From Acidimicrobiaceae bacterium (GTDB taxonomy: Bacteria > Actinomycetota > Acidimicrobiia > Acidimicrobiales > Aldehydirespiratoraceae): a stretch of DNA of 64,000 nt. Made by a program: the position numbers and the translations under genes. Positions 1 to 42,600 of this stretch are shown here, in pieces. Positions within the stretch are counted from its first letter, which is position 1. Every line of letters begins with the position of its first letter. The stretch lies in contig JAPPMP010000009.1 of NCBI GenBank assembly GCA_028819005.1, positions 7,347-71,346 of the forward strand, in the 5' to 3' direction. The notes under the pieces were generated by a model, which searched no databases, was not told the DNA's origin, and saw nothing but the letters and a program-made list of their open reading frames with translations.

Positions 1-239
1 CTGGGCACCTCCGACAGGTCACCGGCCGCTCGGACGCAAGCGGGCCACCCGATCCGGGTGCAGGACGGCGACTCGCTGCCGTCACCGGCCGCTCGGGCGC
101 ATGCGGGCCGCTCGGGCCACGGCCCCGCAAATCAAGCCGTTCGCACGCAGAAATCCTCTGCCTGTTCGCGGGGCCCCTAAGGTTTGGGGTCGATTGCTGC
201 CAACATGGGCGACTCAGTCGATGAGCGAGGAGCGGAGCA

Positions 240-9447: not shown

Positions 9448-10356
9448 GTGACTTCCCTCGAGAATCGAAGAATTGTGGTTGCCGGTTGCACCGGTCAGGT
9501 GGGCGAGCCGGTCGCAACAGCGTTGGCGGCATCGGGCAACGAAGTCCACGGGATTGCCCGCTTCAAGGATCCAGCCGCGCGCCGACGCATGGAGGCGGCC
9601 GGGGTGGTCTGCCACGCGGTCGACCTCACCGATCCCGACCTTGGGTCCGTGCCTGCCGAGGTCGACTATCTGCTCAACTTTGCGGTCGCCAAGACCGGCA
9701 GGTGGGACAAGGACCTCGCGGCCAACGCGGAAGCTGCCGGCCATCTGATGAGTCATCTGCGCAACGCGAGCGCCGTGTTGCACTGCTCCACCACCGCTGT
9801 CTACGCGCCGACCGGCGGTGAGCCGATGAGTGAGGACTCGGCGCTGGGCCGCGATCACCACCAGAACCTCCTGCCGACCTATTCGACGGCAAAGACCGCC
9901 GCCGAAGCGGTCGCTCGTTTCGCTGCTCGCGAGTTCTCTCTGCCGACAACCATCGCCCGGTTGTGCGTGCCCTATGGCGATGAGGGCGGCTGGCCGGCCT
10001 TTCACTTGATGATGGCCCTGGCGTCCCAGGCGATCCCCGTGCATCCCGACGGCTCGCGTTACAACCCGATCCATCACGACGACGTCATCGCGCAGGTTCC
10101 AGCCCTGCTCGACGCCGCGACCCTCGATACCACAACTCTCAACTGGGGCAGCGACGAGGTTGTGTCGGTCGAGGAGTGGACTCGCTACATCTGCGAGGTC
10201 GCCGCTGCGCCCGAGCCGGATTTCGAAGTGAGCGAGTTCACGATTCCGAGCGCGGTGATCGACGCCGACGCGGTTCGCAATGTCGTTGGTCCGTGCTCCG
10301 TTTCCTGGAAAGAGGGTTTCCGGCGACTCGCCGAGCGCACGGCAGCACACACCTAG
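9448..10356 (+). CDS. NAD(P)-dependent epimerase/dehydratase (SDR family)
   Basis: RRIVVAGCTGQVGEPVATAL; YSTAKTAAEAVARFAA. Confidence 0.8.
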   Translation: MTSLENRRIVVAGCTGQVGEPVATALAASGNEVHGIARFKDPAARRRMEAAGVVCHAVDLTDPDLGSVPAEVDYLLNFAVAKTGRWDKDLAANAEAAGHLMSHLRNASAVLHCSTTAVYAPTGGEPMSEDSALGRDHHQNLLPTYSTAKTAAEAVARFAAREFSLPTTIARLCVPYGDEGGWPAFHLMMALASQAIPVHPDGSRYNPIHHDDVIAQVPALLDAATLDTTTLNWGSDEVVSVEEWTRYICEVAAAPEPDFEVSEFTIPSAVIDADAVRNVVGPCSVSWKEGFRRLAERTAAHT

Positions 10357-10696
10357 ACGCTCCGAAGCAGTCGCCGGACTTACAGAAACGGCCGCCGGAA
10401 GATCTTGTTTGCGCGCTCTGTTCGCCGCGCTCCACATCCCGCTCTTGTTCGCCGCGCTCACCGGGCCGCTCGAACCACGGGCAGGACGCTCAGACCACGG
10501 GCGGACGCTCAGACCACGGCCTCGCGTTGCGAGCATGGGGATCTGCGGCCTATTCACTCGGCGTCTGAGCAGCAGTCCCGCGAGTGGCTGCCGGCGCCGT
10601 GTCTCAACCGCGCGGCGCAGCGATAGCCTGTTAACGCACCGGGCCATGTGGACGACACGGACGTTGGACACCATCCCCGCTGCCGGAGCACTCCCG

Positions 10697-12010
10697 ATGA
10701 TCCCCACGTTCGCCGATCTCGGCGTATCCGATTCAATTGTCGCGGTCTTGGAACGGCGTGGCATCACGTCCCCGTCTGAGATCCAAACCGCCACGATCCC
10801 AGACCTGCTGAGGGGCCGTGACGTTGTCGGACGCGCCCCCACCGGCTCGGGCAAGACTCTTGCCTTCGGGATTCCGCTGCTGACACGGGTCCGGCGAGCC
10901 GAACCGAAGCTCCCGACCGCGTTGATCCTCGCGCCGACGCGGGAGCTGGCAGAACAGATCGCGGCCGAACTCCGACCCTTGGCCGACGCCGTGGCACGCC
11001 GCATCGCAGCGGTGTATGGAGGAGTCGGCCTTGAGCCCCAGATCAAGAAGCTGCGACGGGGCGTTGACGTGCTCGTGGCCACACCCGGCCGTCTTGAGGA
11101 CCTCATTGAACGCCGTGACGTCCGTCTCGGCAGGGTCGCCACCGTCGTGGTCGACGAGGCCGATCGCATGGCCGACATGGGTTTCATGCCCGCGGTGCGC
11201 CGCATTCTCGACAAAACGGCCGAGCATCGTCACACGATGCTGTTCTCGGCGACGCTTGAAGGTGACGTCGGCAAGCTCATCAAGCAGTACCAGACCGATC
11301 CGGTACGCCATGCGGTGGGATCCCCGACACCGGACATGAGGGCTGCAAAACACTATTTTTGGGAGATCCCCAGGCCCGAGCGAATCAGCCTGTGCGCTTC
11401 GGTGATAGCCACTTTCGGCTCCACAATCGTGTTCACACGAACTCGCCACGGTGCTGATCGAGCGGCCCGACAACTCAATCGGGTGGGAATCCCCGCGGCC
11501 GCCATCCACGGCAACCGCTCACAAGCGCAGCGTTCCAGAGCGCTTCGTGAGTTCGCCTCGGGGAAGGCCCTTGCGTTGGTCGCAACCGATGTGGCGGCCC
11601 GCGGCATTCACGTCGACGGCGTCGAGTGCGTCGTTCACTACGACCCGGTCGATGAGGACTCCGCCTATATTCACCGTTCGGGAAGAACCGCGCGCGCCGG
11701 AGCTGTCGGCCAGGTGGTGTCGTTCGTGGACCCCTCCCAGATCAGGCTGGTCAATGCCATGAAACGGAGGCTTGAGCTGTCACAGGAAATCTCCGCGCCT
11801 CCTCCCCTCGACGGCCCGGCTGTGACTGTCCCCTCAAAGGCTGCCCCATCAAGGAACGGGCGCTCCAAGCCCCAGCCCGAACAGCTGGACAAACCGAACC
11901 CGAACAAGAAACGGCACAAGCCCGAACACCGCGGCCGAAAACACGTGTCCAATGGCGCCGCGCGACAACACAAGAGCGCCGCAGGTCACGGTCGGCGACG
12001 CTCTCGTTGA
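10697..12010 (+). CDS. DEAD-box RNA helicase
   Basis: MIPTFADLGVSDSIVAVLERRGITSPSEIQTATIP; PTGSGKT; DEAD in VVDEADRMADMGF; SATLEG; HRSGRTARAG. Confidence 0.93.
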   Translation: MIPTFADLGVSDSIVAVLERRGITSPSEIQTATIPDLLRGRDVVGRAPTGSGKTLAFGIPLLTRVRRAEPKLPTALILAPTRELAEQIAAELRPLADAVARRIAAVYGGVGLEPQIKKLRRGVDVLVATPGRLEDLIERRDVRLGRVATVVVDEADRMADMGFMPAVRRILDKTAEHRHTMLFSATLEGDVGKLIKQYQTDPVRHAVGSPTPDMRAAKHYFWEIPRPERISLCASVIATFGSTIVFTRTRHGADRAARQLNRVGIPAAAIHGNRSQAQRSRALREFASGKALALVATDVAARGIHVDGVECVVHYDPVDEDSAYIHRSGRTARAGAVGQVVSFVDPSQIRLVNAMKRRLELSQEISAPPPLDGPAVTVPSKAAPSRNGRSKPQPEQLDKPNPNKKRHKPEHRGRKHVSNGAARQHKSAAGHGRRRSR

Positions 12011-12095
12011 CAGGTCGCGCGCCCCCGCAGCCGCCGCGGACGCGCGAGGGTCAGGGACGACGGTCGGCGACGCTCTCGTTGACAGGTCGCGCGCC
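11988..12095. repeat. Exact 36-bp direct repeat / 36-bp unique / 36-bp direct repeat at the helicase 3' end
   Basis: ACGGTCGGCGACGCTCTCGTTGACAGGTCGCGCGCC at 11988-12023 and 12060-12095, identical; flanking bases differ at both ends; intervening 12024-12059 is 36 nt. Confidence 0.95.
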
Positions 12096-12115: not shown

Positions 12116-12304
12116 CTACTCGAGCAGAAACTCCCGGGTCACCGTTAGAGACCTGGGATCCTGCAGCATGAATACGTGGCCTCCCTCGAAGACTTCAAGC
12201 CTCGCATCAGCGACGCCGGCAACGATCGCTTCATCGATGAATGGCATGTGGCTCAGCTCTCCTGATCTGGCGTTCTGGTCTGGCGTTCTGATCTGGCGTT
12301 GCAC
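12116..12304 (-). pseudogene. Probable C-terminal remnant of an alpha/beta-hydrolase
   Basis: 62 aa ORF ...VADARLEVFEGGHVFMLQDPRSLTVTREFLLE resembles the catalytic-His C-terminal segment only. Confidence 0.5.
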
Positions 12305-25680: not shown

Positions 25681-25791
25681 TCGTTCATCGGGGGGTCGCC
25701 GGGGGTCAGCGACAACCGCATCGCGATGCACGCGACACGGCAACGCCCCGCGTCGTTCATCGGGTGGTCGCCGGGGGTCAGCGACGACCGC
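25681..25791. repeat. 39-bp direct repeat (37/39 identical) with 33-bp unique segment, at the pnp 3' end
   Basis: TCGTTCATCGGG(G/T)GGTCGCCGGGGGTCAGCGAC(A/G)ACCGC at 25681-25719 and 25753-25791; period 72 bp. Confidence 0.93.
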
Positions 25792-28722: not shown

Positions 28723-28865
28723 TAGTTGTGTTTCCTTTTTGGGTCTTGCCCATTGGGTTCCTTACCCAGCTGCACACCCCGCATTGCGCGGGCGGCAGCT
28801 ACCAATCGGTTGCCTGCAAGGCTACCAAGGTCAAGAAACAATCGGCACGGGCGACCGCAACCCGG

Positions 28866-29350
28866 TCAGATGGGGGGTTTGAGGCGGTATTTGCGGGTTC
28901 TGGGGTCTCGGTCGACCTGCCACCGGTGGTCGTGGATCTTGTGAGACCCGCCGACGCCGGCGAGTTCCAAAATCAACTCGGCGAGAGCGTCGGCCAGCCG
29001 CTGGGCGGGCGTGGGCCGCGCCTTGGAGTCTTCGTTGTGCCATATCTGCCGTTGCCTGGCGGTCAACGCCGTGGCGATGCACGCTCCGGTGATCTGGTCG
29101 AACTCGCGCTCCCGACCGATCAGACGGGCGGGCGCAAGGGGGCTGTGGCGATGCGCGCTCCGGTGATCTGGTCGAACTCGCCCGACAGCACGAACATGCC
29201 GGACTCGGGAGACTCGAAGATCCGCGCTCTGCGATTCTTGCGTTGACGATCCAGCAGCGACTGTCCGTCGTCACCTGCGACGTCTTGTTGATGGCGTCTC
29301 ACGGTTCGGGCGAAGTCGTCGAACTGCTGCTCGTTGGGCTGCGCCTGCAA
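28866..29350 (-). pseudogene. Degraded DUF222/13E12-type HNH endonuclease family fragment
   Basis: Two ORF pieces in different frames: ...PESGMFVLSGEFDQITGARIATAPL and ..LTARQRQIWHNEDSKARPTPAQRLADALAELI..DHRWQVDRDPRTRKYRLKPP; the HNH core is not seen between them. Confidence 0.65.
29071..29181. repeat. 37-bp direct repeat (36/37) / 37-bp unique / 37-bp repeat inside the DUF222 remnant
   Basis: GTGGCGATGC(A/G)CGCTCCGGTGATCTGGTCGAACTCGC at 29071-29107 and 29145-29181; gap 29108-29144. Confidence 0.95.
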
Positions 29351-29383
29351 GCAATCCCTCGTCGATATTTCAATACTCTTGAA

Positions 29384-29803
29384 TCACAGAACAATTAGTC
29401 CTTCAAGTTCCGCTGCTTCTGATTGGCGACGGTCCAAACTCAAGAACACGAGAGGGCCGCTGATTTGATCCTGCACGAGGGTTGCCGCTCCAAGCTGGCC
29501 TGCGTCGGCCGCTCGAAGCGGGTAGCGCGCCAACAGCCGACGAGCCCTTTCCCGGACCGTCAGGAGTTCGCAAACCTCATCCCAGGTATCTGCAAATTCG
29601 TCCAGTCGAGCCAGGGCCTCACGTCGTTGCAGCCGCTCCAATCGCTGTTCGCGAGTCAGCCGTTCTATCGCGCTGACGATCTCGACTCTCGTCCATCCCC
29701 AGGTGACTATCTGGTCGTCGTCGGCCAGCCACGAGCGGGCCTGCTCAGTTCCAGACTCGGCCACGACCAGAGGCACCAGCGCCGATGCATCCCAGTACCT
29801 CAC
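29384..29803 (-). CDS. vapC: PIN-domain toxin (VapC family)
   Basis: MRYWDASALVPLVVAESGTEQARSWL; ..LRAADAGQLGAATLV..LVFLSLDRRQSEAAELEGL. Confidence 0.88.
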   Translation of the reverse strand: MRYWDASALVPLVVAESGTEQARSWLADDDQIVTWGWTRVEIVSAIERLTREQRLERLQRREALARLDEFADTWDEVCELLTVRERARRLLARYPLRAADAGQLGAATLVQDQISGPLVFLSLDRRQSEAAELEGLIVL

Positions 29804-30078
29804 AGACGGTCGGCTCGGTCCTGGTCGAGCGCCTCGACAAGACTGGCAGGCAACGCCAAAGGGTCTTCTTCAAGAACCGACCTCGCGTTCCCATGACCCG
29901 GACGCAGCAAACCAGACTTGATCAGCAGTTCACGCGTTTGGTCGCCGGCTTCCCGTTCGGGGACCAGACGAGCGACAGGACTCCCCCGGTCGAGGACTTG
30001 GATCTCGCCTCCACGGCGCACCTCGCGAAGATACCGAGACAAGTTGGCCTTCAATTCCGACACCGATACCGAAGTCAT
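29800..30078 (-). CDS. vapB: Phd/YefM (VapB-type) antitoxin
   Basis: MTSVSVSELKANLSRYLREVRRGGEIQVLDRGSPVARLVP; overlaps the vapC start by 4 nt. Confidence 0.88.
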   Translation of the reverse strand: MTSVSVSELKANLSRYLREVRRGGEIQVLDRGSPVARLVPEREAGDQTRELLIKSGLLRPGHGNARSVLEEDPLALPASLVEALDQDRADRL

Positions 30079-30182: not shown

Positions 30183-33100
30183 CCTTCAATGGAGGCCCGA
30201 ACCTAGGTTCGGGCGAACGACAGAGCCGCCGACCTCATCGACCGGCTCCCGACCCCTTCAATGGAGGCCCGAACCTAGGTTCGGGCGAACCTCGCAGCGG
30301 TCATCTGGCCGCCACGCCGAGCGCGAGGCGAATGGCTCCGCCAGGACGCCCTTCAATGGAGGCCCGAACCTAGGTTCGGGCGAACGCATGGGTCCCGTAG
30401 GCGTGGACGTCAGCATTAGGCCTTCAATGGAGGCCCGAACCTAGGTTCGGGCGAACCTACTCGCTGAGCGACGTCACGTGCAACCGCACGCACCTTCAAT
30501 GGAGGCCCGAACCTAGGTTCGGGCGAACAACGCGTGCGGCCCCCGCTCGATGTCGGGGGATGTCCCTTCAATGGAGGCCCGAACCTAGGTTCGGGCGAAC
30601 ACTCTATAAGTAGGCTAGCCCACCCCGCAGCTTCCGCCTTCAATGGAGGCCCGAACCTAGGTTCGGGCGAACAGGCTCTGACATGGAAACCAGCCAGGAG
30701 GACATCGGCCTTCAATGGAGGCCCGAACCTAGGTTCGGGCGAACCTCAAGGGCAGGCCGGACAATCGCAGGATCATCGCCGTCCTTCAATGGAGGCCCGA
30801 ACCTAGGTTCGGGCGAACGACACAGAGAAAGGGCATATTATGTCCAAGAAGCCAAACCTTCAATGGAGGCCCGAACCTAGGTTCGGGCGAACGACCTTCG
30901 TCGAGGTCACGGCGTGGGGAACCCTCGCGCACCTTCAATGGAGGCCCGAACCTAGGTTCGGGCGAACTCGTCGATGGTGAAGTTGACGTTGCCGTCGGCC
31001 ACCCGCCTTCAATGGAGGCCCGAACCTAGGTTCGGGCGAACCTCGGTCGGCACCGGGAGGCCGAAATACTGGAGCTTCCTTCAATGGAGGCCCGAACCTA
31101 GGTTCGGGCGAACGCACCCCACCCCGAGCACCATCGGGCATGACGCCACGCCTTCAATGGAGGCCCGAACCTAGGTTCGGGCGAACGTGAATACGACGCT
31201 GGCACCGCCGTCGCCGTCGTCGTCCTTCAATGGAGGCCCGAACCTAGGTTCGGGCGAACCTTTTTTTCAATAGAAACACGAAAACAGAGTGGCGGACCTT
31301 CAATGGAGGCCCGAACCTAGGTTCGGGCGAACGCCTGACGACGACGACGCCGTCTCCGACTATCTCACCCTTCAATGGAGGCCCGAACCTAGGTTCGGGC
31401 GAACCTGGTTGAGGTCGACGATCAGCGCCGCCGCCTCCAGCCTTCAATGGAGGCCCGAACCTAGGTTCGGGCGAACAAGTGAACAACTACAGGAAACGCC
31501 TGCGGATGAGGGCCCTTCAATGGAGGCCCGAACCTAGGTTCGGGCGAACGCCAGAGCCTGCCGTCGGCGGAGCGGGTCGAGTAGGTCCTTCAATGGAGGC
31601 CCGAACCTAGGTTCGGGCGAACCGGCGATCCCGGCGACGGCGGAGTCCTCGTCGAGGCCCCTTCAATGGAGGCCCGAACCTAGGTTCGGGCGAACCATCC
31701 TCCATCACGCCCGCGGGTATTGAGGTATAACCGCCTTCAATGGAGGCCCGAACCTAGGTTCGGGCGAACCCGGCTCCCCTGCCCGCAGCGCCAGACGGCG
31801 GAACTCCCTTCAATGGAGGCCCGAACCTAGGTTCGGGCGAACCCCTACCCTCGTTCGTGAGCCGCAGCATGCCGAGCACCTTCAATGGAGGCCCGAACCT
31901 AGGTTCGGGCGAACGAGCATCATCACTGCGTCCCCGATGTCCAGGGCGTACCTTCAATGGAGGCCCGAACCTAGGTTCGGGCGAACACGAAGGCTGGCGT
32001 CCCGACCGCCGAGGCGATGACGCCTTCAATGGAGGCCCGAACCTAGGTTCGGGCGAACTCTCGTCGACGTCGATCTGCGACCCGTCAGCCGCGGCCCTTC
32101 AATGGAGGCCCGAACCTAGGTTCGGGCGAACCCGCTACGACGACGGGCGGGAACCGTCGCCGTGGAGCCTTCAATGGAGGCCCGAACCTAGGTTCGGGCG
32201 AACCTGGCCACCGGCGACAGCATACCACGGGTTAGTAACCTTCAATGGAGGCCCGAACCTAGGTTCGGGCGAACACCGCGACGGTGTGGGGCGTGACCGG
32301 CACGTTGTGCCTTCAATGGAGGCCCGAACCTAGGTTCGGGCGAACGGTGCTCCCCGCGGCGATGGTCCACATCATCACCAACCCTTCAATGGAGGCCCGA
32401 ACCTAGGTTCGGGCGAACCGGTAGGTGTCCGGGCCGACCAGCAGCGCCAAATCGCCTTCAATGGAGGCCCGAACCTAGGTTCGGGCGAACCTGCCGCGCC
32501 GGCATGTACATGGGGAAAGCAGAGATCCTTCAATGGAGGCCCGAACCTAGGTTCGGGCGAACGATGTCGCGGTCGCTCAAGCAGGCCGAGGGCGGTCTCC
32601 TTCAATGGAGGCCCGAACCTAGGTTCGGGCGAACTTGGCCGTGCCGTGTCTGGTCGGAGGATGCACACACCCTTCAATGGAGGCCCGAACCTAGGTTCGG
32701 GCGAACGCCCCCGTCGTGGATCTGGTGGCCGATGCGGAAGAGCGCCTTCAATGGAGGCCCGAACCTAGGTTCGGGCGAACCCCAGTCGCCCAGCTCGGGA
32801 TAGTGCGGCAGCAGTTGCCTTCAATGGAGGCCCGAACCTAGGTTCGGGCGAACGGGGTGGGTGTGGTGGTCATGCCCCCTACTGTACACGTCCTTCAATG
32901 GAGGCCCGAACCTAGGTTCGGGCGAACCAGCGCGACGTTCTGGAAATGCTGATTCCGCTGCTCAACCTTCAATGGAGGCCCGAACCTAGGTTCGGGCGAA
33001 CGGTGCGACCCCGAGCGCATCCCAGCAGTGACCGACGCCTTCAATGGAGGCCCGAACCTAGGTTCGGGCGAACCTCCGTATCGGAACGTCTCGCGGCGTG

Positions 33101-33217
33101 AGCGGACGTCCTTCAATGGAGGCCCGAACCTAGGTTCGGGCGAACCACCGAGTTGATGCGGGCTGTGAGCCTGGTGCCCCACCTTCAATGGAGGCCCGAA
33201 CCTAGGTTCGGGCGAAC
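30183..33217 (-). CRISPR. CRISPR array, 42 repeats of 36 bp (+ strand CCTTCAATGGAGGCCCGAACCTAGGTTCGGGCGAAC) and 41 spacers, mostly 35-39 nt
   Basis: Repeats counted by eye; direction inferred from the ATTGAAGG 3' end on the minus strand and from cas2/leader at the right end. One 59-nt spacer at 30291-30349. Confidence 0.98.
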
Positions 33218-33386: not shown

Positions 33387-33686
33387 TCAGATGACCGTAG
33401 GCCCAGACGTCGGCAACGCCGACCTCAACCCCATGAATTCAAAACAGTCGCGACCGCGGTTTGCGGGAGGGCCGAGATCGACGAAGGCCACGGAGTCCTT
33501 CCCGTGATGGATAATCGAACTCAATTCTTGTTTCAACATCACCATCTCAACAGCGTCCAGGTCACAGATGAAAACACTGTACTGCATGGGCCAGCCGTAG
33601 TTCTTCACGCTCTTGTGCACCAGCCTCAATCGCTTGGCATCACTGATGTCGTAACTCACAAGAAAGCGGTTTCTACCCGATGCCAC
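33387..33686 (-). CDS. cas2: CRISPR-associated endoribonuclease Cas2
   Basis: RNRFLVSYDISDAKRLRLVHKSVKNYGWPMQYSVFICDLDAVEM. Confidence 0.93.
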   Translation of the reverse strand: MASGRNRFLVSYDISDAKRLRLVHKSVKNYGWPMQYSVFICDLDAVEMVMLKQELSSIIHHGKDSVAFVDLGPPANRGRDCFEFMGLRSALPTSGPTVI

Positions 33687-33690
33687 AGCG

Positions 33691-35328
33691 CTACCTCGTC
33701 ATGAAGGGCGTGTATTCGGGGATCTCACCGAGCAGGTGCGCTGCAAGAACACGAGCCTGCACCTCAAGCACGCGCCGGTAAGTGATCTTGTAACCGTAGG
33801 TGGGATGCGTTACCTGAGTGTCGAGCCGTCGTTCATAAGCGGATAGCACAGATCGCCGGCCCTTCTGCGTGAGCGAGACTCCACCGGCACGAAACTCGAA
33901 GTCCTTTGCGCTGACCTCGCCGTTGTTGATCGCGTTGATCACGACGGACTCCGCAACCAAGGGTCGGAACTCCTCAGCCAGGTCCAACGAGAGAGCAGGG
34001 CGACCGAAGCGAGGGCGGTGAAACACGCCCAAGTACGGGTCGAGGCCGACAGCGATTGCCGTTGCGGTCAAGTCCTTGGTCAACAGCGCATACACATACG
34101 ACAGCAGACAGTTGACGGGATCTCTTGGCGGTCTTCGGTTGCGTCCGTTGAAGTCGAAGGCCCCGAGACTCTCATCACGGATCATCGACGCGAACTGTGA
34201 GAAGTACAGCCGCGCTCCCGTGCCTTCCATGCCCAGCAAACTCTCGATCGACTCGCTCCGATGGATACCCTCTGCGAGCGATTTGAGTTGTTCCACCTCG
34301 CGCTGGACGTCGGTGCGTGCGTTTCTCCTCAAGAATGTCCGCGAGTTGCGCAACTTTCCTTCGATCATCGCCTGAGCGATCGGCAGACCAGCTTGTGCAG
34401 CTATCGCGACTTGGCGCCGACGAAGGTCGACGTGCTTGGAGGGAAGCCCCTCTGCGATTCCTTGGAACCATCCACCATAGGAGAACCAGCAGACAGGGAT
34501 TTCCTCTCGAAACGCCGCCCGCATCATCTGGCTGCTGACCTGAACGTTGCCGTATATGGCTATCTGCGACACGTCGATGAGGCGAAGTTGCTGGATTTCG
34601 TCACGGCCCTTGCTGACCACGACCCGCCCGGAACGGATACCGATCCTGGCGCCTTGCTCGGTCACATAGAGAGGTCTCGCTGCTGAGTCGCGCGGCGTGA
34701 GGCGGCGGGGAGCGGTTGTGCTGCGTTTCGTGTGGAGGTTTGTCTCGTCTGGCAGACAAATGCCGACCAGCGAGCATCTTGGGCACTTCGGACTATCGAT
34801 GAGTGGCGGCGGTGCCTCAGGTTGAGCCGCGACTTCGCGCAGTTTCGCGACCAGAGTCAACGTGTGGTCGATCAACGGTTGATCAAACGGAACGGTCGTG
34901 CGCTTGCGAGTCTCGGCAAAATAGAACTGGCCTTCGGTGCATTCGTAGCCGTTGTCTTGCAGCAGCAAACCGATCGTGCATATCTGCACCTGTTCGGGCA
35001 TCCAGGCCGGACCGTGTTTGGGTGGCCGCCCGCGTTTCACCTCCACGGGCACGACACTGCCGTTGCGCTGCTCAATGACGTCGGCCTTGGCGATCAGGCC
35101 GAGCCGGTGGGAACTCAACTCGACAGACTTGGCTTTCTTGAACGGTGGATCCTCAACTGTGCCCATACGACCACCACCAGCGTCAACCACCCGGTGGACG
35201 TAGAGACCCTCGACGGTGTCCCGATTGTGCTCGAAACGCGACTGCACCCACTCCAGATAAAACAGCCTCGGGCAATACTCGAACTCATTGATCATCCGAG
35301 CCGGCACAAGATCAGGAACTTCACTCAC
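33691..35328 (-). CDS. cas4-cas1: Cas4-Cas1 fusion, type I-G
   Basis: Cas4 half: INEFEYCPRLFYLEWVQ..VEVKRG..CPRCSLVGIC; Cas1 half: PLYVTEQGARIGIRSGRVVV..GNVQVSSQMMRAAFREEIPVCWFSYGGWFQG. Confidence 0.95.
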   Translation of the reverse strand: MSEVPDLVPARMINEFEYCPRLFYLEWVQSRFEHNRDTVEGLYVHRVVDAGGGRMGTVEDPPFKKAKSVELSSHRLGLIAKADVIEQRNGSVVPVEVKRGRPPKHGPAWMPEQVQICTIGLLLQDNGYECTEGQFYFAETRKRTTVPFDQPLIDHTLTLVAKLREVAAQPEAPPPLIDSPKCPRCSLVGICLPDETNLHTKRSTTAPRRLTPRDSAARPLYVTEQGARIGIRSGRVVVSKGRDEIQQLRLIDVSQIAIYGNVQVSSQMMRAAFREEIPVCWFSYGGWFQGIAEGLPSKHVDLRRRQVAIAAQAGLPIAQAMIEGKLRNSRTFLRRNARTDVQREVEQLKSLAEGIHRSESIESLLGMEGTGARLYFSQFASMIRDESLGAFDFNGRNRRPPRDPVNCLLSYVYALLTKDLTATAIAVGLDPYLGVFHRPRFGRPALSLDLAEEFRPLVAESVVINAINNGEVSAKDFEFRAGGVSLTQKGRRSVLSAYERRLDTQVTHPTYGYKITYRRVLEVQARVLAAHLLGEIPEYTPFMTR

Positions 35329-36232
35329 GCTGCCAAATTACGCGAGGCGGACCGAACGTTCCGTATCCACCTTGATCACTTCGCCGAATCTGTGACTGGA
35401 GGACGCGATTTATTCCCCACGCCCTGTACCACTTCAGACGATGGTGTTCACCCTCATTTCCTTCTGGAGCGACATGGCCCAGCAAGGACCCCACCGTCCT
35501 GGAGGAGGCAGGCACTCCCCAGAGAGGCCAAGTGAACGCTCCGCTCTTCCAAGACCCCGAGCAGCCCTGCGTGCGGGTGCGGTTCTTGGATTTGAAACTA
35601 GGGAATCTGACCAAACCCAATACAGCGAGGGCTTCAGCGCCTGGATTCGTGGGTTTCTTGGACTTCGAGGGATCCGAGGCGCTAAGGGCATGGTCTCGGT
35701 CGTCGACCGTGTCCCACATCAGCGAATCACGAGCGCCTTCATAGCTCCACTGCGATCCAAGGTCCGCAACGATCTCGTCCTCGGTTACTTCGCCGAGACT
35801 GGTACGAGCAATCGAGAGGAACTTCTGCTGTCCCGCCGTGAAATAGAAGTCCGACGGCTTCGCGATCTGGCTCCGGTCCAAGCTGTCTTCGGCCAGAAGG
35901 CATGCTGCAAGCAGTCCCGACGCTCCCGCATCGCGCCCCTGTTCCAAATACTTCCGAATTTCCGGAGACTTCAGTTTCAATTTGGGGTCGATCGACTCGT
36001 CTAGAGCGGGCCCGTCAAGCCAGCGCGCTGCGACAAAGAGAACCGCTTCAGCGATCTCGTCAAGGTCGACCGCTGGTTCGAGGACGGGCTGTGGGATCGG
36101 TTGATCGGTCCAGAACAGCGCGCACTTTTGACCTCGCCAATCCAAAGCTACCTGTACACCCAGCGCCGCTAGGAATCCAAGCGGATTGGTTCCAGGTAGA
36201 CCTGACAACAAGGTTCCACCCGATTCAGTCAT
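35321..36232 (-). CDS. Type I-G Csb3/Csx17-like (Cas8-type) effector subunit
   Basis: ~303 aa between cas3 and cas4-1; LLSGLPGTNPLGFLAALGVQVAL; TAGQQKFLSIARTSL; SLMWDTVDDRDHAL; assignment mostly positional. Confidence 0.65.
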   Translation of the reverse strand: MTESGGTLLSGLPGTNPLGFLAALGVQVALDWRGQKCALFWTDQPIPQPVLEPAVDLDEIAEAVLFVAARWLDGPALDESIDPKLKLKSPEIRKYLEQGRDAGASGLLAACLLAEDSLDRSQIAKPSDFYFTAGQQKFLSIARTSLGEVTEDEIVADLGSQWSYEGARDSLMWDTVDDRDHALSASDPSKSKKPTNPGAEALAVLGLVRFPSFKSKNRTRTQGCSGSWKSGAFTWPLWGVPASSRTVGSLLGHVAPEGNEGEHHRLKWYRAWGINRVLQSQIRRSDQGGYGTFGPPRVIWQRE

Positions 36233-39203
36233 TGGCTGTCTCCTCTGCACTCCGTTGTTGATCCGCTAACCGAAGAATCGCTTCCAGCCAGGCGAGTCCG
36301 TGATGTCCGTACTTCGCCTGCAAGCGCCAGAATCGGTCTGCCATCTCCAACGCGAGGGGCGTCTCGGCAAGGTCTGAACGCGTGCTCAGTTCGAATGTCC
36401 CGTCGGCTTCCCGCTGTTCTCGCAGTCCATTGTCGGGAGTGACGCGGAATCTTCCGTCGACGAACTCGCCTGAGATCGCCAGGGTTTGCGACTCCGGATC
36501 CTCCTTGATCGCCGGGAGCGGTCGGCTGTAACCATGATGCGAACCCACGAGGTGCAGAACCAAGTCTGGATCATGCGCCTGAACGAGCAACTCCGGCACG
36601 CTCTGCACGAGGGCGACGCTGCTGAACTCATGGCGTACCGGCGGCCACTCGTGTCGTCGCGTCCGGGCACCTCGCAGCGACTTTGCCAACGGCTCGTCCA
36701 TCGACGCGAGCCTCACGGAGTCGTGGCCGTGCATCTGCGCTTGGAACCTCGGGTCGACTTTGCCGAGATCGTGCAACTGGGCCGCCAATCGCAGGTCGCC
36801 GACCATCTCGTTCGGAAGGCCCAGGTTCTGAGCAAACTCCTCCACCTTGGCTCCCACCCCGACCAAGTGTTCTCGCAGCGTGGTCTTAGTTCCAGTCAGA
36901 GACGGCTTGTCATCGAAACCGTCCAGGGCCGCGGGATCGACCGAGTCCTGAACCAGCACGTAGTAGTTCGCGGCCCCCTCCCCGTTGACGATTTCGATCT
37001 CCGGGGCGGCGCCAACGAACTTCTCGACGACCTCGGACATCCAGACCGGAATCCCCGAGGACGGCGAAGACTCGCTCACTTCCACCAACCAGTCCTGAAT
37101 CACCTTATCGGGGGACCTTTCGGCATCGCGTTCCTGTGCGGGCTTAGGCGGCGACGGGCAAGCGAACCCCTCGAACAAGCGCTCGTCGAGGCGGAGTGTC
37201 GCACGTCTCCCATACGCGACCTGCGCCTCGTCGCCGAGGTCAAACGCTGCTCCGGGTTCGTTCGTCACCTCACCTGGATCGACCCGTTGCGCCGGGCGAT
37301 AGCCCGGATCCCAGGCGCCATTCCGAATCCCGCCGAGACGCGGCTCCACGATGAGCACGTCTCCGGGTTCGACCTGTTCGGCCCGCAACAACCGTTCGAC
37401 CCCAGGGTCGCGCCGCGTCCACCGGACCACACCAGTCAACTCCCGCTCCTGCGTCCTTGATCGACCCGAGTTCTCAGTGGGGTTCTCAATGGCAACGTCG
37501 CTCACCACCGATTCCTCAGCGCCGCGAAGCCAATCCTTGGCCGCAGAGATCGGTACCGCCAGAAACTCGGCGGGCCGCGGCGGTACCAGAGAGATTGCCT
37601 GTTCCGAGTGGTCGTGGCGCCAGACGACAGATACTTCAGGCTCGACTTGGCGCTCCTTGCCGTGCAGAAACTCCGCTATCGAAGGATCGATGACTGGTCT
37701 GGGACTCGTCTGCGACCAAGCGTCGATGTGTGTCGGAAGCAGCAGGGGCGCCTCGGACTTGTCGGCCTGCGCCTCGCCACCGATACGGGCGAGCAGTCCG
37801 GCCGCCGGACCGACATCGATCTCGCTGCCTTCTGCGGCTTGCTGCAGGCCATCCCAAGCGATCCTCGCTCTGTCGCCGTAGACCGGGTCCGGCTTCTTCG
37901 GATTGAGCGCCGAAGCAACGCCTAGGATCCAACACCGAGCTGCAACTTCGTGGCTCGATTCCTCAGACTCAGCTCCGCCCGTCGGGTTGCCTTTCCGCCT
38001 CTGAGCGGCAAGGCTGCCGCGACGGTCGAGCCGACCGAGGCGCTGCTGCAGACTGTCGATCGGCGCCGCCTCGGTGATGAGGACGTCGAAGCTGAAATCG
38101 GCGCCCACCTCGATCGCTTGGGTCGCAACCACCACAGTCGGTTCCGCGATCGCCTTGCCACGCTCGGGATCAACGCAATCGCTGATCTCCTGCATCACGG
38201 CCACCTTGTCGAGCGGGCGCATTCGGCCAATCACCAGATGGGCGGCGATTCCTTTGTCCCGAAGGGCCGCGTGAACCTCGCGAGCGGTGCGCACGCGGTT
38301 CACGATCACTCCGACACTCCGCTCGTCCGGTCGAAGGTTCCTGCAGCCTGCGCCGAGCAGACTCAGGACCTTCGACGGCACGGTCTCGTCCGCGGGCCGG
38401 GTTCCAGGCACTTCCACGAGCGTGGCTCGCTTGGGAGCCTCAGCGATCTGCTTCAACCTGCCTGAGGACTCAAGGTCATCAGGCTCAAGCCGGAACCGCT
38501 CCTCCGAATCAGTGGTCGGCGTGGCCGACATCTCCACGACCTCGAATCGGCGGGGAAGCCCTCCGCCGATTGAACGGATTCCGGGGATCTCGCCATCGGA
38601 GGAAACGTCGCTCAGGGTGCATGCGAACGCATGGCTCAGATGGACCTCGTCGAGGATGACCAAGCAGTCGTTGCCAGCCAGGCCCGCATGTACCGGCCCC
38701 ATCCGCTCGCTCACACCATAACCCCTGAACAGCAGGCGCGATCCAAACTGATCGACCGTCGAGACCAACACCCAAGGCTGCTCGGGCCGACTGACCCAGT
38801 CACCGTCGATGGGGATTCCACCCCTTAGAGCCGCGACACCCAGCACCTCATCCGCCTGGGACAGGGCGCGGAGACGCTCTCGCGCCATGGCGAGCACCCC
38901 GCCGTTCGCGTCGCGGACCGCGTCGCGGATCTTCCGAGCGCGCTCCACCACTTGGTCCACGACTATGCGTCGGTCGATGACGAAGACGACTCGCCGCGGG
39001 AACAGATCAGGACGGGCCGCCAACGTGAACACGGCGGTGTCGAGGACCGACGTCTTCCCCGTGCCCGTGGGAAGGTCGATCACTCTCGGCCACCGGCCCT
39101 CCGCGAGCACTCGCCGCGTCAAGCGACTCTGCCAGGGGTAGGGCGGATGATCGTGGACGGCCTCGAAGTAGGCGTCAAACTCGGAGACCAGCAGGTCATC
39201 CAT
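36225..39203 (-). CDS. cas3: Cas3 helicase with C-terminal HD nuclease domain (type I-G)
   Basis: VIDLPTGTGKTSVLDTAVF; VILDEVHLSHAF; C-terminal AAQLHDLGKVDPRFQ and SHHGYSRP. Confidence 0.93.
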   Translation of the reverse strand: MDDLLVSEFDAYFEAVHDHPPYPWQSRLTRRVLAEGRWPRVIDLPTGTGKTSVLDTAVFTLAARPDLFPRRVVFVIDRRIVVDQVVERARKIRDAVRDANGGVLAMARERLRALSQADEVLGVAALRGGIPIDGDWVSRPEQPWVLVSTVDQFGSRLLFRGYGVSERMGPVHAGLAGNDCLVILDEVHLSHAFACTLSDVSSDGEIPGIRSIGGGLPRRFEVVEMSATPTTDSEERFRLEPDDLESSGRLKQIAEAPKRATLVEVPGTRPADETVPSKVLSLLGAGCRNLRPDERSVGVIVNRVRTAREVHAALRDKGIAAHLVIGRMRPLDKVAVMQEISDCVDPERGKAIAEPTVVVATQAIEVGADFSFDVLITEAAPIDSLQQRLGRLDRRGSLAAQRRKGNPTGGAESEESSHEVAARCWILGVASALNPKKPDPVYGDRARIAWDGLQQAAEGSEIDVGPAAGLLARIGGEAQADKSEAPLLLPTHIDAWSQTSPRPVIDPSIAEFLHGKERQVEPEVSVVWRHDHSEQAISLVPPRPAEFLAVPISAAKDWLRGAEESVVSDVAIENPTENSGRSRTQERELTGVVRWTRRDPGVERLLRAEQVEPGDVLIVEPRLGGIRNGAWDPGYRPAQRVDPGEVTNEPGAAFDLGDEAQVAYGRRATLRLDERLFEGFACPSPPKPAQERDAERSPDKVIQDWLVEVSESSPSSGIPVWMSEVVEKFVGAAPEIEIVNGEGAANYYVLVQDSVDPAALDGFDDKPSLTGTKTTLREHLVGVGAKVEEFAQNLGLPNEMVGDLRLAAQLHDLGKVDPRFQAQMHGHDSVRLASMDEPLAKSLRGARTRRHEWPPVRHEFSSVALVQSVPELLVQAHDPDLVLHLVGSHHGYSRPLPAIKEDPESQTLAISGEFVDGRFRVTPDNGLREQREADGTFELSTRSDLAETPLALEMADRFWRLQAKYGHHGLAWLEAILRLADQQRSAEETAND

Positions 39204-40914
39204 CGCCCCTACCCTCCCCGTCGCTCGCCTCGCGTTGAGAGCGGTCGTCCATCGGCCGCATCAGGCCGAGTCCGAGGAAGCGACCGCTTCCGAGCACCAG
39301 CGGGCCGCTCACATCCTCGGGGAACTCGACTGACACATGAACCAACCTTCGCTGGATACCGCCACCCTTGCGGCCCTGCTTGAACGCCGGGAAGTCACGC
39401 GCCGGACGCGTGCCTACAAGGTCCGAAACGAACGACACTCTCACATCGACGGGACGCGGAAGACCGATGTGCGCACAGGACTTGGCGACGGACTCCTCGG
39501 CACGTGCCCATGCCTTCGCCCGCGCCGCTGGCGTTCCGCTGACAAGGTTTCCGGGGTGAGTGGGCAAGGCAACCGGAGTCGCGGACGCCCACCATCGAGA
39601 CCTCCGTTCCCAGACCCGAGGGTTCAAGGATGTCAAGCTGAAAGGCGGTTGCCTCCTTTGCATCCAGGCGTCCCCGTTGGGACCCATAGTGAGCTGCAGC
39701 CGCCTGTCTTCGCGCCGATCTTCCCAAGTACCGATTCCGCGCAGTGTCGCGCGGCGCGCAGCCTCGTCAAGGTTGTGCGGGAGAGAAACAGCGAGACCCA
39801 TGATCCGGCCGTCAGCGCGTTCGTGACCGACATTGGGCAGCGCTAGGAACGAGAGGTGCGGCACCTCCGTCGGCCTGCCGTCTGCGACATGCCCGCTCAC
39901 GCCCTCCGGAATCGGGTCTTCAACAAGGCTGAGCACTGCCTCGCGCAGAACCCTCGCAAGCTCAACGGCCCTTGTAACAGGCATTCGCCTGTGGCTCGGG
40001 TCTAATTCGAAGACGATCCAGTCGCCGGCGGTCGTCGGAATCAGCACCTTGTCCGGGACACCTTCGGTCGCGTCCACCTCACGGTAAGGGACAGCTTGGA
40101 ACGGGAGGCTGCGCGGCTTGATCGCCTTGTGCTGAGCGTGTTCAGCCTCGAGCGCGGCGAGCTGCCCTGATTTCACCCAGCGCAGCATCTGGGTTCCCGC
40201 GCCAGGAGTGTGGGTGGCTGGAGGCGCCTCATCGATCAACCGGCACGAGATCAGGGACGACGAGTGGCCCAGTCGCGTGACCCGGCTCAACAGGCTGTCA
40301 AGCGCTTTGGTCACATCAGGGGTTGGACTGTCATCCCACGCATACGTCACCGAACTGACGGGGGGTAAAACCACAGTCGACTCCGCACCTTCCGAGGGGA
40401 GCAGGGTAACCGAAGGGAAATGACGCTCCTTTTTGCCGCGGTGCTCGGGAAGCAGGGCAACAGCAGTGGCGACGTTGGTAGTCCCAGCGCGCCCCACCAT
40501 CGACTCCACATCCAGTTTCTTGTCGATCTTGTTCTGCAAGCGGCGAGCCTTGGCGGTCAGCTCGCCGCCTGACGACTCGACCTCGTCTTCGAACTGCCCC
40601 AGCAAGTCCGCGACGTCCTCGACACGTTTGTCGTACGAAGCACCGGCAATGACCCTGGTGTCGTTGACTGGAACGAAGTGGCTCACCGCCCTTCTCGCAA
40701 CAGCCCCTGGCGCGTTGATCCGAGGGGGCGGCTGGGTCTCCAACCATTCGAGTGCGGTCCGTTCGGTCTCGTCGGGCGGATCCGCGTCCGCCCAGGCTGC
40801 GACTATCGCCGAGAACAACCGCGCAGCATGGGGCGGCCACTCGTGTGCCGACCGGTCGTGGTGCGCTGTCGCCGTGTAGCGGCCCGTGAGAAAGCTGACC
40901 TCAATGGCGATCAT
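39196..40914 (-). CDS. csb2: Csb2 (GSU0054 family, Cas5-Cas6 fusion)
   Basis: SFLTGRYTATAHHDRSAHEWPPHAARLFSAIVAAW; C-terminal RFLGLGLMRPM glycine-rich loop. Confidence 0.9.
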   Translation of the reverse strand: MIAIEVSFLTGRYTATAHHDRSAHEWPPHAARLFSAIVAAWADADPPDETERTALEWLETQPPPRINAPGAVARRAVSHFVPVNDTRVIAGASYDKRVEDVADLLGQFEDEVESSGGELTAKARRLQNKIDKKLDVESMVGRAGTTNVATAVALLPEHRGKKERHFPSVTLLPSEGAESTVVLPPVSSVTYAWDDSPTPDVTKALDSLLSRVTRLGHSSSLISCRLIDEAPPATHTPGAGTQMLRWVKSGQLAALEAEHAQHKAIKPRSLPFQAVPYREVDATEGVPDKVLIPTTAGDWIVFELDPSHRRMPVTRAVELARVLREAVLSLVEDPIPEGVSGHVADGRPTEVPHLSFLALPNVGHERADGRIMGLAVSLPHNLDEAARRATLRGIGTWEDRREDRRLQLTMGPNGDAWMQRRQPPFSLTSLNPRVWERRSRWWASATPVALPTHPGNLVSGTPAARAKAWARAEESVAKSCAHIGLPRPVDVRVSFVSDLVGTRPARDFPAFKQGRKGGGIQRRLVHVSVEFPEDVSGPLVLGSGRFLGLGLMRPMDDRSQREASDGEGRGDG

Positions 40915-42134
40915 CAGTCGCTCTCCGCCGGTTCGCGCGCCGACACTTCGCGGCTGCGCTTGAGCAACTCGACCAGCTTCGGAGCGGGGACCAGGGATAT
41001 CGGACCTTCTTCCCAGCCGACTCCCACTCCGGCAGCAGCGCGGGATGCCTCGGACAACAACCGGGCGGCCGATTCGCGATCGACCTCGACGGCTTCGGGC
41101 GTCGAACCGTCACGGGCGATGAGTTCCAGGCGGGGCGCGTGCTCGGGAACGAGCAGACAACGCGACCGAAGGTCAAGATCGTTCTCGTACCCGTAGGCGA
41201 TCGCTGCGACTCCAAGCGCAGCCACCGCGGTGCGCGCCGCGACCTCAGCGTCTCGACTCAGACCGGCGAACCGCAGGCGCCTCAAGGCAGCCAACGAGAT
41301 TACCGTCGTCTGACGCGCCCCCGAGATGGTCACGCCACCCGACTGCGCGTCGATCCCGGGAGCGATGTTCCCGTGGTTGATCTCTGAGGGGCGGCCGTCC
41401 GATCCGGCGGTCTTCGGCTTCCCCTTGTTGTCACGCGCAGCCTCGGACTCTTCGAGGGTCCAAACCTGCTCAGGGTCGGCATGCTCGTACGCGACCGCCG
41501 CGGCCTTCTCGATCTGCAGAGGATCGATCCGGCTGCCGACCTTGCGCCCGACTTGGGCGTCGAGGCCGACGATCTCCGAGACGTACGCTCGCTGGAACTT
41601 CGAGCCGAGGCCACCCTTGGGACCGGTCGAATCCCACTGGCCGAACAGCAGCGCCGTCGGGGCGTAGCGGAACATCGCCGTCGCGTCCTGGGGCCGAGCC
41701 TCGGTGATGGCCCGCCCCACGTCACTCAACCGGAACAAGGTCCCTTCGAGGAGGCTGTCACGAAAGATGGCGTCCGCGAACCGGTGGGGCGCATCGAGCA
41801 CGGTGATCCTCCCGAGGTCATCAACATCGGCCTCGTCGGTGAAGTCCACGAAGGGCACTGGGAAATGGAGTTCGCCTTCCTCCCAACCCTCTTTCAGTGC
41901 CATTTCCGCGCGGTTCGCCTGGGACGCGACTGAGTCGAGTAGCACGGTTGTCACAACCTTGTCGCCTACCTGCCTCTCCTCAACGGCGTACTTGTGGTCC
42001 GCGTTGACCGCGTAGGTCGGCGGAAAGACCTTGCCACCGGGACCGTCCACAGGTTGCAGTCGCATGATGGAGCGAAGCGCTACCGCCCCGCCTCTGACGG
42101 CATCGTGCAGTAAATCAATCGTTAGTTCAGCCAC
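40914..42134 (-). CDS. csb1: Csb1 (GSU0053 family, Cas7)
   Basis: VAELTIDLLHDAVRGGAVALRSIMRLQPVDGPGGKVFPPTY; GTG start at 42134 preceded by AAAGGAG; the ORF-track start at 42323 is probably too far upstream. Confidence 0.9.
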   Translation of the reverse strand: MAELTIDLLHDAVRGGAVALRSIMRLQPVDGPGGKVFPPTYAVNADHKYAVEERQVGDKVVTTVLLDSVASQANRAEMALKEGWEEGELHFPVPFVDFTDEADVDDLGRITVLDAPHRFADAIFRDSLLEGTLFRLSDVGRAITEARPQDATAMFRYAPTALLFGQWDSTGPKGGLGSKFQRAYVSEIVGLDAQVGRKVGSRIDPLQIEKAAAVAYEHADPEQVWTLEESEAARDNKGKPKTAGSDGRPSEINHGNIAPGIDAQSGGVTISGARQTTVISLAALRRLRFAGLSRDAEVAARTAVAALGVAAIAYGYENDLDLRSRCLLVPEHAPRLELIARDGSTPEAVEVDRESAARLLSEASRAAAGVGVGWEEGPISLVPAPKLVELLKRSREVSAREPAESD

Positions 42135-42600
42135 TTGGGCTCCTTTCGTTCGGGTCCTAGCATCCTGCCAGAACCAACTCGGTTGAGTATCGCGCGAGGG
42201 TGTGACAGCACTCCCTTTGCGACATCGGAGTCGAACAGTTCCCCATGGCAACGTCTCCTCCACTAGGGGTCTCGCCAAGAACTTCGTGGCCACGCACGTC
42301 GAACACCTCCTGTCGCCCTTCAACCGTCGTCGCTCGACGCTGGTCGAAACCCGATTGGGTTCTTCCGAGACTGGTTTGTCGGAATATCAGAAGCTCTGGG
42401 GGCAGACATCGGGGTGCTAGTGTTTGCGCTTGATGGCATGGCGGTTTGCTCACTCTCGCTACCTGATTCACACATGTCACGAACAAGATCGATCCCGTGG
42501 TCGATTCCATGCCTGCGCCAGTGAATCGACCAGCGCGTCGTTCTTTGTCGGAAGCGCTTGCGACGTTGGGAGCCGAGACCTTGGAATATGATCATGTTAT

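Follow-up and report, generated by a model that had tools for sequence, protein, structure and literature searches.

Off-target (non-canonical) spacer integration is the described process closest to the insertions reported here. Overexpressed Cas1-Cas2 of Escherichia coli reportedly inserts spacers at off-array sites in vivo, and the same work of Nivala and coworkers is said to list a few natural cases, in Yersinia pestis and Sulfolobus islandicus. Off-target integration and neo-CRISPR loci are referred to in passages of PMC11788318 and PMC9456107 that cite Nivala, Shipman and Church (2018, Nat Microbiol 3:310). For the type I-G adaptation module, which consists of a Cas4/1 fusion and Cas2, PAM-guided prespacer trimming with processing of the PAM end by Cas4 has been described, and nonspecific integration products were suggested in vitro (PMC10504553). 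In the I-G literature examined, no description of natural off-target I-G products in a genome was found. Transposons and casposons likewise insert between direct target-site duplications; in contrast to these elements, the inserts described below differ from one another and, with 28-41 nt, are too small for an integrase gene or a mobile element.

The locus studied here lies in a window of 64,000 nucleotides (the whole stretch of DNA that was analyzed) from an uncultured actinobacterium of the Acidimicrobiaceae. The window is contig 52 of its own genome assembly, G000 (3.06 Mb, 98% complete, 52 contigs), which is probably a metagenome assembly. At the 3′ end of a helicase gene, a short segment (A) occurs twice and encloses an insert (B):

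10280..12010, plus strand: RhlE/CshA-like DEAD-box RNA helicase, with the insertion at its 3′ end
11988..12023, no strand assigned: A1, first copy of the target duplication, 36 bp, holding the helicase stop codon; single copy in the relative G004
12024..12059, no strand assigned: B, insert of 36 nt with 83% G+C, proposed off-target spacer
12060..12095, no strand assigned: A2, second copy of the target duplication, 36 bp

The sequence ACGGTCGGCGACGCTCTCGTTGACAGGTCGCGCGCC is present at 11988-12023 and again at 12060-12095 with 36 of 36 positions identical and no mismatch, and the identity breaks at both ends, which agrees with the exact 36-bp repeat, 36-nt insert, 36-bp repeat geometry claimed in the sequence-only reading. 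The TGA stop codon (12008-12010) lies inside the first A copy, so that the end of the helicase protein is unchanged. B showed no resemblance to either flank, and a simple tandem duplication or slippage was rejected for this locus, since the insert is unlike the adjacent segment. A canonical CRISPR array was rejected as well, since A is unrelated to the resident repeat CCTTCAATGGAGGCCCGAACCTAGGTTCGGGCGAAC; no other matches to A were found in the own genome. A structured RNA was considered and dismissed (z-score -0.03, no Rfam family). Further downstream, the convergent neighbor gene has probably left a remnant of its 3′ end at positions 12117-12300, where G004 is about 660 bp longer, and three tandem copies of a 13-bp sequence are located at 12262-12300.

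The search of B against phage, plasmid and host sequence, which the sequence-only reading had proposed, and against viral sequence did not find a donor. A second copy of B with up to three mismatches was found neither in the whole own genome nor in the genus, and comparison with phages, plasmids, IMG/VR, host and genus gave no convincing match. The viral contigs scanned contained no exact match to the 36-mer A or to a 23-mer taken from B. The best match to B, a Streptomyces plasmid with 26 of 28 nt (E 0.008), was rejected as donor. The G+C content of B exceeds that of all spacers of the resident array (38-78%).

This array belongs to a type I-G system in the same window, whose Cas4g/Cas1g and Cas2-like ORF are the candidate adaptation genes for the 36/36 class in G000:

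30183..33217, minus strand: canonical type I-G CRISPR array, 42 identical repeats of 36 bp and 41 spacers
33387..33686, minus strand: cas2, 99 aa, assigned from position and sequence pattern
33691..35328, minus strand: cas4-cas1 fusion (Cas4g/Cas1g; NF049935, 759.9 bits), candidate integrase of the 36/36 class
35321..42323, minus strand: remaining type I-G operon, encoding a Cas3-extension protein, Cas3g, Csb2 and Csb1/Cas7g

The spacers are 35-39 nt long with a mode of 36, plus a lone outlier of 59 nt at 30291-30349, and the earlier description of a 36-bp repeat with mainly 36-nt spacers was thus borne out. The resident adaptation module (Cas4/1 fusion plus Cas2) is of the kind studied in PMC10504553. 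Two small ORFs on the minus strand at 29384-30078 adjoin the array and look by eye like a PIN-domain toxin and a Phd/YefM antitoxin.

Close direct repeats are frequent in the window and in the genome, and the 36/36/36 arrangement taken alone might therefore be a coincidence; its significance follows from the genome-wide length distribution. A mismatch-tolerant scan for two-copy gapped duplications covered 1.90 Mb (62%) of G000. Of the 88 gapped duplications with a single pair, 51 had an insert of 28-39 nt, five of 16-27 nt and two of 40-51 nt. The periods were concentrated at 60-61 (n = 17), 66 (n = 3) and 71-76 (n = 22), and other periods from 50 to 90 were scarce. By loose definitions, 52 A-B-A insertions were assigned to three classes, which were defined after the data had been seen: class 1 with A/B of about 28/33 and a period of 60-61 (24 events), class 2 with about 36/30 and a period of 66 (5 events), and class 3 with about 36-39/33-39 and a period of 71-76 (23 events). 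A strict subset, comprising single pairs with a period of 60-61, or of 71-76 with an A of 36-39, or of the type II class (class 2), still contained 38 events. By extrapolation, 52 events in 62% of the genome correspond to about 84 per genome. The count of 52 includes three doubtful cases (C20:1, C7:29345 and position 18 of the window), and the low-complexity loci C39:25596 and C25:23 were set aside as lying outside the three classes. Besides the helicase locus, the following arrangements are present in the window:

25681..25791, no strand assigned: second A-B-A, with A at 25681-25719, B at 25720-25752 (33 nt) and A at 25753-25791; 37/39 identical; intergenic
29071..29181, no strand assigned: third A-B-A, with A at 29071-29107, B at 29108-29144 (37 nt) and A at 29145-29181; 36/37 identical
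18..109, no strand assigned: possible fourth A-B-A, 29/34 with a period of 63, in a dispersed GC-rich repeat; a weak case

Copies related to the region 28830-29400, in which the third arrangement is located, occur at many positions in all six genomes of the genus, and the region apparently represents a large, partly decayed gene family.

The usual unit of a type I-E array is 28+33, that of a type II array 36+30. The three A/B groups match type I-E, type II and type I-G arrays, respectively, which suggests modules of these types as their source. Class 3 (36-39/33-39), in which repeat and insert lengths vary by a few bases, has the dimensions of the resident I-G array (36-bp repeat, spacers of 35-39 nt). 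The I-E and II geometries had been recognized before the cas genes of sister species were checked. G002 has an I-E Cas1e together with Cas2e and Cse3, and G003 has a type II Cas1 together with Cas9 and Cas2; the Cas1 matches in G001, G004 and G005 score like the I-G one. Since the I-G fusion is the sole Cas1 encoded by G000, the I-E-like and II-like events of this genome require a lost or unassembled module, and presumably these modules have been lost or lie outside the assembly.

Based on these sequence comparisons, we interpret the 36-36-36 arrangement as the scar left by a Cas1-Cas2-type integrase that inserted a CRISPR spacer off target, and to this reading we assign a probability of about 0.86. 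The integrase, likely the type I-G Cas4/1-Cas2, would be loaded with a prespacer trimmed to about 36 nt, whose 3′ ends would be joined to opposite strands of a non-CRISPR chromosomal site at points separated by about 36 bp. Once the gaps had been filled and ligated, the 36 bp between these points would be present twice, on either side of the insert. Cas1-Cas2 would thus be the agent of the insertions in general, and at 11988 the resident type I-G Cas4/1-Cas2 is the most likely integrase. Spacer integration into a non-CRISPR target, as originally proposed for the helicase locus, is supported by the genome-wide recurrence, by distant donors with an NTG motif and by neo-arrays with two spacers.

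Near-full-length copies at distant sites of the own chromosome were found for 7 of the 52 inserts, namely those of C3:55275 (35/35), C5:25677 (35/35), C21:19650 (30/30), C16:12902 (33/34) and C16:19193 (38/39) and, with partial alignments, C19:71217 (28/28 aligned, insert of 30) and C7:10562 (29/29 aligned, insert of 31). A second copy exists for only 21 of 3000 random 34-mers from the own genome (0.7%; binomial P 8e-8). None of the 41 array spacers had a self match in the sequence analyzed, compared to 7 of the 52 inserts (Fisher P 0.016), a contrast that would fit autoimmune purging of a functional array and not of unexpressed scars. All six located I-G donors carry NTG directly outside one end, and this candidate PAM was picked after the data had been seen. 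In the four donors from the own genome it reads ATG, TTG, GTG and CTG, and in two donors read from G001, which has the closer or sole match, it reads CTG (at L220) and GTG (at L215); the own copy of the C3:39148 donor has GTC in place of NTG. The probability is 0.00125 that six random segments have some dinucleotide in common at one of five offsets. In both donors of the II class, GG is present beside one end, which is only suggestive. The pooled I-G and II inserts, together with the array, gave no matches to phages.

Some sites have apparently been used more than once. At C37:46971-47120, three copies of CTCATAGCCGAACACCCAGGGGGCTATG (28 bp) enclose two 33-nt spacers with a period of 61. At C7:10563-10712, three copies of another 28-bp sequence likewise enclose two 33-nt spacers, of which one is a copy of sequence on C46. 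The repeats of both loci are unrelated to the resident CRISPR, and the two loci are candidates for new CRISPR arrays that arose from ordinary sequence. Three copies are also present at C26:12360, where the periods are 64 and 61, and C5:5126 and C11:44835 show a further period (60, or 136 = 74 + 62) that is nested with the 36-bp class. A repeat-recognizing integrase would be expected to return to a target that has once been duplicated. Staggered double-strand breaks repaired by end joining of the Ku/LigD type would yield the same A-B-A form, with the duplication arising from overhang fill-in and the filler from a captured genomic fragment, and inserts copied from distant chromosomal DNA agree with such a process. 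Its products should, however, have broad and uncorrelated lengths instead of three narrow A/B classes with sharp periods, and it predicts neither NTG beside the donors nor growth into two-spacer arrays with a period of 61. We therefore regard end joining as very unlikely.

It is also quite improbable that the genome-wide events are real integrations and the one at 11988 is an ordinary gapped duplication that resembles them by coincidence. The lack of a donor, the very high G+C content of B and the local rearrangement of the neighboring region speak for such an exception. Off-class gapped duplications are, however, few (7 with B of 16-27 or 40-51 nt vs. 51 with B of 28-39 nt), so that membership in the class is by far the more likely reading of a 36/36 event.

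Off-target spacer integration should leave an uninterrupted target in related genomes, and this was examined by collapsing A-B-A to A and aligning the flanks to relatives. In G004, the closest relative among the genomes compared, and in G001, the site corresponding to 11988 contains A once and lacks B, so that the single-copy target postulated for relatives is present; 18-19 bp of extra sequence beside it in G004 mean that the empty site there is not gapless. Gapless empty sites were found for the window loci 25681 (G004, 95% over 239 nt) and 29071 (G004 93%, G001 88%, and also G005, G003 and G002) and for C16:12902 (G004, 86%) and C16:16293 (G002, 84%), and several further loci align to relatives with small gaps. 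The C21 region was uninformative, since the relatives differ there by about 1.6 kb. At the compared sites, no insertion was common to any relative. With regard to 11988, both observations that had been named as arguing against integration were checked, and it was found that no relative shares the duplication and that B is not copied from adjacent sequence. Replication slippage or template switching, in which AB is duplicated in tandem and one B is then lost or decays, is extremely unlikely as a general explanation; true and partial tandem duplications are common in G000, but at the sharp loci B is unlike either flank, at the empty sites it is wholly absent, and in several cases it stems from another contig. 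Slippage is possible for individual loci within low-complexity repeats, such as 18-109 of the window.

Similar A-B-A insertions are present elsewhere in G001, G002 and G003. Those with I-G-like lengths include L138:848-952 (G001), L151:508-615 (G002) and L152:1420-1528 (G003), and in G002 and G003 an I-G Cas1 is not seen today. That the insertions are artefacts of library or assembly in a metagenome-assembled genome, for which the 52 contigs of G000 might speak, is hardly credible, as the A copies are identical in 28 of the 52 events and diverged in 24 (34 mismatches over 1716 bp), as in aged events, the lengths obey CRISPR rules, and similar events occur in these three independent assemblies. 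In 400 kb of the congener G005 (C1:1-400000), no three-class events were found, compared to 11 expected from the rate in G000. Loci of other genera in the family (102 kb), Streptomyces plasmids (150 kb) and E. coli K-12 (100 kb) likewise contained none. The Cas1 of G005 is similar and yet its 400-kb segment has no events, which indicates that presence of the gene is not enough; differences in expression or in site factors are a possible cause.

Taken as off-target integrations, the insertions probably make the genus a fossil record, with tens of events per genome contributed by type I-G, I-E and II systems, two of which are no longer encoded by G000. Some of the sites would have been hit again to give new arrays, and self-derived spacers would survive at them, unpurged by autoimmunity in contrast to those of the real array. 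As in the neo-CRISPR loci of Nivala et al. (2018), off-array chromosomal sites contain a spacer bordered by a repeat-length duplication. In contrast to those cases, 52 events of three geometries were found in 62% of one uncultured actinobacterial genome, several donors are self sequences, the I-G donors share a flanking NTG, and two loci have grown to two spacers. The number of events and the presence of three geometries in one genome appear to be new, and a partial literature search found no paper describing a genome-wide natural census of such insertions.

The findings bear on two open questions, the natural damage that spacer-writing enzymes cause in host genomes and the birth of new CRISPR arrays, for which evidence has so far come from overexpression experiments and very few natural cases. 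With about 84 scars per genome, insertion-site preference, PAM fidelity and the ratio of self to foreign spacers without selection become countable, and so do the age and the loss of past CRISPR systems. The period peaks at 61, 66 and 72 offer a simple scan for any genome, even for those whose cas genes have been lost.
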